DNA of 64,000 bases from NCBI GenBank assembly GCA_001600355.1, contig BCJU01000001.1:2253178-2317177 (forward strand). Direction: 5' to 3'. This DNA is from Meira nashicola (taxonomy: Eukaryota; Basidiomycota; Exobasidiomycetes; Exobasidiales; Brachybasidiaceae). Of the stretch, positions 56,001 to 59,539 are shown in pieces. Both the position numbers and the translations under genes were made by a program. Position 1 is the stretch's first letter, and the number at the start of each line of letters is the position of its first letter. The notes under the pieces are model-generated. The model made no database searches. It saw nothing but the letters and a program-made list of their open reading frames with translations, and had not been told where the DNA came from.

Positions 56001-56215
56001 TTAGTAAGCAGGGCATCTGAAGATAAAGAGGAAGAGAGAGGGATGATTTATGATCAGTTGATGTAATATGACGTGACACGTAAAACCAACTATACATACC
56101 TTGCGCGGCAGAATTGTCTCTTGTCACCGGCAACTTCATTTTCTGCTGGGACAGGTGCAGCGATAGCACTGGCGACCATAACGGCGGCAACGATTGCAAC
56201 AAAGCTGAAACGCAT
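56001..56215 (-). CDS. Secreted kexin-type peptide precursor, copy 1 (43 aa, spliced)
   Basis: Two exons, 56215-56100 and 56016-56001, flank an 83-nt intron with a strong AAG|GTATGT donor, a CTGAT branch-like site and a long pyrimidine tract before TTCAG. The product is 43 aa. Residues 1-20 are a signal peptide (MRFSFVAIVAAVMVASAIAA). A short acidic pro-segment (PVPAENEVAGD) ends in Lys32-Arg33, and then comes the ten-residue end QFCRARCPAY. Kex2-type cleavage after KR would release a decapeptide with two cysteines spaced C-x3-C and an N-terminal Gln able to form pyroglutamate. Without splicing the product ends CRARYV with only one cysteine, and the match to copy 2 supports splicing. A TATATAAAAGG box lies on this strand about 250 bp upstream (near 56463). 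I do not recognise the peptide. Confidence 0.75.
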
Positions 56216-57491
56216 TTTGATGATGATATTTGAAGTCTGTTTGTGTAAAAAATTGAGAGTGGAGGAAAACGGGTGAGCAAAATGAACAATACTATGACTC
56301 TACTTAAGCGCGCCAAACTCAATCGTGATATGGAGAAAGATTTGAATGGTGAAACTTACTATAAGGGGTATGTGATCAAAAGATCTTGATTTGAGAGAAT
56401 AATGGAGTGAAAGTAGGATGGGTTATGCAACGTTCCACAATTTTGGTAAAAAGACAATCCTTTTATATATCCTTTTCGAAGACCAACCCTGAACCTCTGA
56501 GAGTTTTATGCAAGTTGCGGATATGTGGATAAACCCAGGTACAATTTGCTCGAGTGAGCAAAATGGCGGTATAAGACTTTGTAAGTGTGAATTTAAATCG
56601 AATCGATGATGCATAAATTGGAAATTTTATTCATTCTTAGCGTAAAAGGGCAAAAGACGCGTGTAAAGAAAAAGAATTGATTCTTTCTTTTCTCTCAAAA
56701 GGAACCAATAGATTAAAAAATAGATTAAAAAAAAAACAAGCCGAATCTTTTAAGGCTTTATATCAGATGATTTTTTTTATCCCTTTCACTTTACCACTGT
56801 TATGACTTTCGGTAAAATTCCTTTAGGATTGAATTACGAATTACGCCGCCTACATCAAAAGTGGGGAACCAACGTGTTCTACCGTATGTACATACATATG
56901 TACAGAGTATCTTGATTCTTTTCCGTTTTGCCTTGCATTACGCAGGTACTTCATCCTATCCATCTCAACGGTACCATGTACAGATAATTCGATCAGATGC
57001 AGATTGGTGAAATAACGAGGTGGTGTTGAAACGTTGGATCAATCTAGCAGCATTTTTCATTAAACTTTGATTTTTCTAATTGATGCATGGATTTAATTAA
57101 GACGAAAGTGGCGATCACAATAAAGTCTATATGATTCATACAGTTCAGCGCCACGATAACCAAAAGGTACATGTATGTAGCCATTGCCGTTTTGCTGCAT
57201 GTCCACTTTTCATTCATACGTACGATAGGATTATCTCATCAATCTTTGGCTTCTTTGCGTGGCTGATCACTGGCTTAAGAGAATATGGAAAATGTCCATC
57301 AGACAACATCAAGATTGTACACAGAAAAGAATTCTCCTTATACATATTAAGGGTTTACGATAGATTCTGGAGTAGAGTAAAAGAAAAAGGTGATGCGAGA
57401 AATTGTTGACGCTTATTCAGCGTTCCCAAAGAAAAGAAAGAGGGAGATTTTGTATCGGATCGAGGTAACACTACAACAGTATTAACTGGAT
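56216..57491. other. Intergenic region between the two peptide genes
   Basis: About 1.28 kb. It holds the presumed promoter and 5' leader of copy 1 (TATA near 56463; a possible leader intron with a GTAAGT donor near 56361). It also contains A-rich runs near 56717-56740 and a palindromic GTATGTACATACATATGTAC at 56884-56903. An ORF at 57131-57409 (+) has no recognisable features and I do not call it. Confidence 0.45.
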
Positions 57492-57623
57492 TTACCATCC
57501 TGGACAACGAGGTCTGCAGAATTGACGTTTGTCACCGGCAACTTCATGTTCTGGTGGGTTGGGTGCAGCAACGGCAGCAGCGACCATGACAGCGATGACG
57601 AGAGCGACAAAGTTGAAACGCAT
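57492..57623 (-). CDS. Secreted kexin-type peptide precursor, copy 2 (43 aa, intronless)
   Basis: Single-exon 43-aa paralogue of the gene at 56001. Signal peptide MRFNFVALVIAVMVAAAVAA, pro-segment PNPPEHEVAGD, dibasic Lys32-Arg33, then the C-terminal decapeptide QFCRPRCPGW. The core EVAGDKRQFCR is identical to copy 1, and ATCAAAATGCGTTTCA around the start codon is shared exactly. The C-x3-C-P-x-aromatic pattern is kept while other positions vary. A GATATAAAGG box lies about 225 bp upstream on this strand (near 57848), at a spacing like that of copy 1. The Q-aromatic-C...C...W layout superficially recalls alpha-type pheromones of filamentous ascomycetes. Those usually come from precursors with repeats, and I see no proof of homology. 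Confidence 0.78.
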   Translation of the reverse strand: MRFNFVALVIAVMVAAAVAAPNPPEHEVAGDKRQFCRPRCPGW

Positions 57624-59539
57624 TTTGATCTGTGGTTGTTTGTTTGTCTAAAAAAGAAAAAGAAAGAGGGAAAACTTGGGTCAATAAGAATCTCTTAGAG
57701 TCAAATGGATCAAGGATGATCATACGCACTGTAAGTAGTTTTGAGAAATACAAAAGGTTTCCTCGGTTGTCAGGAAGAGGTCAAACGTTTGAAAGTTGTT
57801 GTGGGAGGGAAAAAAGTTTGATTAAGGTTGAATCCCAGACAGCCTTTATATCACTTTTTGCAGCAAGTAAAAATTGGCTGCAACCAGGAATGCGGATAAT
57901 CTAGGTACAAAGGAAGGGGTGGGGGAACACATACGTAAATGTATGCATTACAGGTGTTTAATTACGTTTTTGCTTCTTCATCCAATGAACTTGCTCTTCG
58001 ACTTTAAACTTCATGTGTTCGTCATTTAACTTCAATGAAATGAAATTAATCGATCGTGCATCAATGCATTGCGCATGTATGTGGGTTATGAATGAATTAC
58101 CGATAATGAGGGAAAAAAAGTAGGGCCCCGACAAACCGGGGGAAAAGGACCGGGAAATTTAAATAATAAAAATACAAAATAAAAAAACCAATAAGATACC
58201 GCGGCAAGGAAGGCGAAAAATGAGACAAATCAACCTTCTATCTTTTCGTCGGAGTTTATTCCGGTCTTCAAGGGAAGCAGTCCAAAAAAAAATTAAGGGT
58301 AAACAACACTGAAACAGCGCCTCCTTACAGTACATACATGCATTCAAATCGGTGAGGTTAACCTATTGATTCGCGGGACGGACGATTTGCGAGCTTGCTT
58401 CGGTAGTCAGGCTTCTCTTCCCTTACATTTCGGCTGAATGTTTGCTCGAATAATGCGCTTCTGACAACGAGGATCGGGTGCATTGTGCGTATATCTTTGA
58501 GTGCGAATGCATGACACTTGGTTGATGTTAAATAATCCAGGTACGTTGGCAAGGAAGTTACGTATATGTACCTTCTTGTGCAACATCGAAAAAATAATCA
58601 CAAAATACCGTACATCGAGGACAATGAATTTACCAGTAAATATCTTGGCGCGCATGAACCTGCATGAAAATGATAAGACGTTAGTGTGTCCATACAGCGC
58701 AGCGCCCACACCTGTCAAAAAAAACCAAAGGTTAAGAGAGCAAGTTTAAGTTATTATTACATACATGTGCTTGCAGATATTACAGAAGAGGTGCGTCGCG
58801 TATCCACACAGAATCTACAAATAAAACTGAATCATCCAAAACCACGCTAATGTTTTTAACACGCTAATTGAAAGCATATTGTTCAATTAAAAAGCCACTT
58901 GATCACAGCAAGAAAAAAAGGCACACAAGAATATATGTACAAGGAGTCAAAGCAATGCATGGTATACTTGCATCCAACTCATCCTCATGGTCATTGAATT
59001 TTGAAAATTAATTAAGGGGAATCTTTCCCAGCATACATGTACATAGACTAGTTCATGATTGCAAACTATATTGATACGATAAGCATGGTGAACTGTAATC
59101 GGGCAACTATTTTCTTAATTTTTGGCTTACTTTCTTCTTTCGCCTGTGACTAAAAGAAAAGCGGATAACTGGTCTTTGCATACCTTTGTTCCTCATCGAA
59201 GAATTGAAAAAATCAAGGTACCGTGCATCGATGGACCGAACTTAATTTCCTCTGTTTGATCACGGGTAGAAATGGGTCGGATTTCAAATAATTTATCCGT
59301 ACAAATGTAGTTTATGCATGCGCGCCTTCTATTTCCTTTTTGGATTACGGTGGCTTTACTCAGCTTTCAAGGAGCATTTAATTAATTCTGCACTACTAAA
59401 CTTAAATGTGATGGAGAAATTTAATTAAAGGAAATCTACTATGTGTAAAATACAAATGCTTAATAAGGAAACACTGTGAGAGTGTACATATACAAATATG
59501 TAAAAGCGGATATAGCTGAGTTTAATTCGATGCCGGTGC
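57624..59539. other. Gene-poor intergenic region
   Basis: About 1.9 kb upstream of peptide copy 2 and downstream of the WAPL-like gene. Only short ORFs without features are present. It has TACATACATG motifs near 58330, 58758 and 59031-59046. I searched it for further KR-containing small precursors and saw none. Confidence 0.45.

Follow-up and report, generated by a model that had tools for sequence, protein, structure and literature searches.

The window, that is, the whole stretch of 64,000 nucleotides analysed here (G000:C1:2253178-2317177), carries two short genes on its minus strand, and a divergent relative, gene 3, lies on the plus strand about 10 kb before it. In genes 1 and 2, a signal-like segment is followed by an acidic pro-segment, a KR and a C-terminal decapeptide, to make a product of 43 aa in each case. 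The features are the following:

Gene 1, complement(join(56001..56016,56100..56215)), minus strand: 43-aa product after removal of a putative 83-nt intron.
Gene 1 exon 1, 56100..56215, minus strand: signal-like residues 1-20, the pro-segment up to DKR, then QFCRA and two nucleotides of an Arg codon.
Gene 1 intron, 56017..56099, minus strand: 83 nt, GTATGT..TTCAG, containing a branch-like CTGAT, as read from the sequence.
Gene 1 exon 2, 56001..56016, minus strand: the remaining base of the Arg codon, followed by C-P-A-Y and the stop.
Gene 1 upstream region, 56216..56480, minus strand: TATA-like TATATAAAAGG, and perhaps an intron in the 5'UTR, as judged by eye.
Gene 2, 57492..57623, minus strand: intronless 43-codon ORF ending in DKR-QFCRPRCPGW.
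Gene 2 upstream region, 57624..57860, minus strand: TATA-like GATATAAAGG, and perhaps an intron in the 5'UTR, as judged by eye.
Gene 3, G000:C1:2242936-2243067, plus strand: 43-aa product MRIHIFATLAIILATFTIAAPVPSDKNAPLEPRQFCKRICAPY, ending in EPR-QFCKRICAPY.

Without splicing, gene 1 is an ORF of 41 aa that ends in QFCRARYV; with the 83-nt segment removed, its end reads QFCRARCPAY. The segment has GT..AG borders and sits within an Arg codon. We infer that it is spliced out, because the ORF of P0003, a gene-1-like database protein, departs from the family pattern at the same codon, where it reads K-Y-V, as expected from GTATGT, and because gene 2 has the same layout without an intron. A preliminary description of this DNA had announced two precursors of 43 residues, and both are present, gene 2 directly as an ORF and gene 1 through the 83-nt splice, which the coordinates given for gene 1 imply and the earlier text leaves unmentioned. 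The gene 2 product is the same protein as database entry P0001, and a Pfam scan of it gave no family. The 16-base start context that had been reported as common to genes 1 and 2 is correctly described, since ATCAAAATGCGTTTCA is read in both sequences; ATCAAAATGCGT also stands at gene 3. Upstream likeness between the genes is not significant, shuffles scoring as high in 72/500 cases for genes 1 and 2, 28/500 for genes 1 and 3, and 377/500 for genes 2 and 3.

Genes 1 and 2 match each other at E 4e-14 in a translated search of the 17.9-Mb genome. The balance of synonymous and nonsynonymous change, to which the preliminary description had pointed, was computed over the coding sequences: dN is 0.21 and dS 1.02 (Nei-Gojobori, own script), a dN/dS of about 0.2. 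These values show purifying selection between the two genes; therefore, both frames have been kept. Within the core, six synonymous changes fall on about 6.2 sites and six nonsynonymous changes on about 24, and Q-F-C-R-x-R-C-P is retained. The layout alone is not rare, since a loose search (signal-like ORF, [KRP]R, two-Cys tail) yields 2 ORFs in 163.5 kb and 0-2 in each of 20 shuffled sets (7 in total). Nevertheless, it is hardly credible that these are chance small ORFs without function, given three homologous loci of equal length, the dN/dS of about 0.2 and a database relative.

Gene 3, about 66 kb from gene 1, was matched at E 0.199 with gene 2 as query, and its own product as query matches gene 1 at E 0.0085 (translated genome search), values that are weak alone. 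We regard it as a third, divergent paralogue because, besides these E-values, its product has exactly 43 aa, 12 columns are invariant among the three genes (RQFC included), its start reads ATCAAAATGCG and it lies nearby. Its product is database entry P0002, found on 5 contigs. Judged by eye, a ribosomal-protein-like gene lies upstream, a SET-domain-like ORF starts about 3 kb downstream, and a 144-aa minus-strand ORF lies between. About 7 kb from gene 3 there is also a Pro-rich ORF of 428 aa (L011, 559-1845), to which Pfam assigned no family; a hydrophobic stretch lies close to its start, and it contains two long repeats that are nearly identical (PKKQGR.LLRYTDEGQPKPLKSPPASGPTGSR).

The precursor part of P0003 is identical to that of gene 1 at 31/33 positions. 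Its DKR is followed by AF, Ala replacing Gln1, and 3/6 readable core residues differ from gene 1, the third of them within the intron-split codon. The seven residues of P0003 beyond K-Y-V would require at least 12/21 nucleotide changes from the gene 1 intron, no fewer than random peptides need, in an ungapped comparison where an indel could hide likeness. Since these residues are unlike the gene 1 intron while the prepro part is so nearly identical, P0003 belongs either to a diverged relative or to a further paralogue. Genes 2 and 3 lack the gene 1 intron, but P0003 seems to have it, which suggests that it may have been gained in the gene 1 lineage, or lost separately.

The prepro part and the core of gene 1 and P0003 differ at 2/33 and 3/6 residues, respectively (Fisher p 0.019, for a single comparison picked after the data had been seen), and this one pair suggests that the core changes while the precursor stays constant. 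Among the three genes, the corresponding differences are 8/33 and 3/10 (genes 1 and 2), 22/33 and 5/10 (genes 1 and 3), and 25/33 and 6/10 (genes 2 and 3). The earlier view that the mature part is kept while the signal peptide drifts does not survive these counts, by which the core shows no clearly stronger conservation than the precursor. P0003 is the one protein on which cross-species conservation of the family rests.

The database protein search relies on shared 5-residue words, and more distant relatives may exist; it retained 3 proteins from 12 candidates and the same 3 from 30 with a wider alignment, two of them being the products of genes 2 and 3 of this genome. Across the genome (17.88 Mb, 20 contigs), translated searches in which the products of genes 2 and 3 served as queries detected no loci beyond the three genes. 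The KRQFC pattern occurs 3 times and its reverse once; the third occurrence, L003, is in a different frame of a long open frame. For [R/S]-Q-[F/L/W/C]-C-x3-C, there are 23 places versus 16 reversed, with a signal-type N-terminus in frame solely at genes 2 and 3; the intron-type pattern gave 9 places versus 3 reversed, with such an N-terminus in frame at gene 1 alone. At L020, L026, L031 and L037, a stop falls at most one residue past the second Cys and there is no signal-type N-terminus in the same frame, though splicing from an upstream exon could supply one. A scan of 163.5 kb for further precursors returned genes 2 and 3 alone, spliced gene 1 being invisible to it, and 0 of 35 pattern matches in viral contigs were confirmed. 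The search for relatives proposed earlier thus brought a third paralogue and P0003, and with them a correction, as neither Gln1 (Ala in P0003) nor KR (PR in gene 3) is constant.

Residues 3-19 of the precursors are hydrophobic, with a mean Kyte-Doolittle value of 2.2-2.6 (the signal was judged by hydropathy), the pro-segment is net negative and all cores carry a charge of +2. Each of the three genes encodes a single core. The site before it is KR in genes 1, 2 and P0003 (as DKR) and PR in gene 3 (as EPR), where a KR lies instead within the putative ring (CKRIC). The kexin P domain is matched once in the genome. The open frame that contains it also has DDGVD, HGTRCAG and GGTSAAAP, the catalytic motifs of subtilases, and a hydrophobic segment towards its C-terminal end. 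Together, these features identify a Kex2-type protease gene. There is also one match to DPPIV_N, a Ste13-type family. The PR of gene 3 could work as a kexin site, because PR44 of killer toxin K1 is a moderate to weak Kex2 signal, according to the available portion of PMC7021474.

From these sequences, we infer that the three paralogous precursors would enter the secretory pathway, and that kexin would cut after (K/P)R to release one C-terminal decapeptide from each: QFCRARCPAY, QFCRPRCPGW and QFCKRICAPY. The decapeptide would close a Cys-x3-Cys ring and be secreted with an aromatic C-terminus, and in peptides that start with Gln this residue may be converted to pyroglutamate. In the accessible text of PMC9769878, KEP peptides of Agaricomycetes are processed and many are pyroglutamated. 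Once secreted, the peptide would act as a signal read by a putative receptor, which is the least certain part. We put at roughly 0.48 the probability that the family consists of Cys-x3-Cys ring peptides, one per precursor, that kexin releases, that are secreted and that most likely serve as a hormone- or pheromone-like signal. Against a simple model of this kind, KR is not universal, the KR within the gene 3 ring could itself be cut by kexin, and Gln1 is Ala in P0003. Of the secreted one-copy kexin precursors seen earlier, what stands is the homologous one-core design with its signal-like N-terminus and two-Cys C-terminus, together with a Kex2-type gene; the KR is limited to 2/3 genes and P0003.

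If, on the other hand, no cut took place at KR or PR, the secreted product would be the chain of about 23 residues after the signal peptide. The prepro part is indeed the best-kept part relative to P0003 (31/33), and gene 3 has PR for KR as well as a KR inside its core. This alternative is improbable, however, as genes 1 and 2 and P0003 all retain DKR, no residue of RQFC varies among the three genes, and a kexin gene is found in the genome.

For the role of the released peptide, a secreted signal is our first choice, followed by an antimicrobial or killer-like role and then a host-directed one. The cores would suit competition or defence peptides (cationic, Cys-bridged, antimicrobial or killer-type) in their net charge of +2, their two Cys and their aromatic end; in addition, P0003 keeps the precursor and alters 3/6 readable core residues, as diversification would. 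Such a function nonetheless appears rather unlikely. The cores are very short, the core of genes 1 and 2, with six synonymous changes on about 6 sites and six nonsynonymous ones on about 24, indicates constraint, not diversification, and Pfam revealed no immunity or partner gene in the 19/22 window ORFs of at least 150 aa that were scanned.

Host-directed effectors, acting on a plant or animal with which the fungus is associated, would be small and of secreted type, with few relatives found and a core that varies, as it does relative to P0003. The window argues against this, and we consider it distinctly unlikely: the Pfam-named neighbours are of housekeeping type (Ribophorin II, Pex19, WD40/Utp12, Rot1, PPTA, PFU/PUL, Rrn6, BIR, PAS-GATA and MutS, in a scan where some ORFs had no family at all) and therefore offer no guilt by association. 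Long single ORFs make up many of the genes in the window, and the fungus is probably a basidiomycete.

Secreted, kexin-released peptides of the kind we favour have known counterparts. In the available parts of PMC6339444, PMC7329392 and PMC9769878, KEPs likewise have a secretory precursor and a dibasic site that releases a short peptide, and those of basidiomycetes include pyroglutamated and Trp-ended peptides (PMC9769878). Unlike KEPs, there is one core per gene here, and PR in one gene. The KEP pipeline, as given in the available text of PMC6339444, requires at least three repeats, that is, at least three cores between KR/RR/KK sites, and each of the three precursors has one. The same source reports basidiomycete peptides that resemble alpha-pheromones, for example Trichosporon oleaginosus QSWGGCGGRGTPCW. 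With this look-alike and the two-Cys ascomycete alpha-type pheromones, as presented there, the family shares an aromatic residue and a Cys close to the N-terminus, a second Cys near the aromatic C-terminus and a preceding kexin site; it differs from them in its Cys-x3-Cys spacing, its single core and the two residues from the last Cys to the aromatic end. The kexin site is followed by QF in genes 1-3 and by AF in P0003, and not by the XA/XP (STE13) signature. Hence, the likeness to alpha-pheromones drawn earlier fails on Cys spacing, XA/XP after KR and copy number, by criteria taken from the accessible text of PMC6339444. A genome search for PF02116 (STE2) gave no match, in a setting where no control genome matched for this family and the same method found STE3.

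Membership of the KEPs or the alpha-pheromones was rejected on the features tested (single core, Cys-x3-Cys spacing, no XA/XP after KR); on its predicted processing, the family is a variant of kexin-released fungal peptides outside both groups. No such family was found described in the literature searched, which consisted mostly of open papers and did not have the sequences themselves as search terms. A genome search for PF11807 (UstYa/DUF3328, ustiloxin/dikaritin) gave no match, with no control matching, and none was seen in the 19/22 window ORFs of at least 150 aa scanned. To our knowledge, Qsp1 of Cryptococcus is without a Cys ring. It is alike in being a short secreted basidiomycete peptide and differs in being imported through Opt1 and acting inside the cell, as far as the available text of PMC7537855 goes.

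The last four residues of all three products begin with the second Cys (CPAY, CPGW and CAPY, or C-x-x-[YW]). Basidiomycete lipopeptide mating pheromones have a CaaX end and STE3 receptors, and their precursors are of similar size to the three 43-aa products. The usual CaaX has an aliphatic middle and a permitted last residue, not a Tyr or Trp end or a Pro middle. A variant of such a precursor, in which the second Cys would be prenylated as in CaaX, would account for the small size, the one C-terminal peptide and the Cys at -4, and STE3 receptors are encoded in the genome. This is nevertheless very improbable: Tyr or Trp is last and Pro is in the middle, the hydrophobic, signal-like N-terminus, foreign to lipopeptide precursors, would place the Cys in the ER lumen, and a second Cys is conserved. 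In addition, the STE3 pair is on the same contig but at a distance of about 1.15 Mb, on which mating-type linkage was rejected.

It is possible, if doubtful, that the putative secreted signals would form a peptide-hormone system previously undescribed in basidiomycetes, made of single-core kexin-released Cys-x3-Cys rings, with a constant precursor and a core changing between relatives, and independent of the STE3 lipopeptide mating system. Joint divergence of ligand and receptor would be expected to produce such a combination of constant precursor and changing core. Because the survey of PMC6339444, in its available text, asks for repeats, single-core precursors would escape it. The existence of secretory peptide signals in basidiomycetes is a question raised in the portions available of PMC6339444 and PMC9769878; if real, the family would provide a cheaply synthesised ligand set for testing such signals besides lipopeptide pheromones.

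The two STE3-type receptor genes lie about 6 kb apart in a single assembly (G000:C1:3456532-3457259 and 3463025-3463672; L007-L009, L052). The first is in pieces, one of which has two in-frame TGA, possibly introns. A third, weak STE3-like match at G000:C1:4675843-4676154 (L010; 22.8 bits, below the cut-off of 29.2) is a possible orphan receptor. A CaaX filter that excludes Tyr and Trp ends listed 3 short ORFs in 50 kb around the STE3 pair. One of these, a 32-aa ORF on the minus strand near the pair (C1:3454920-3455018), ends in CVVL and may be an ordinary pheromone precursor.
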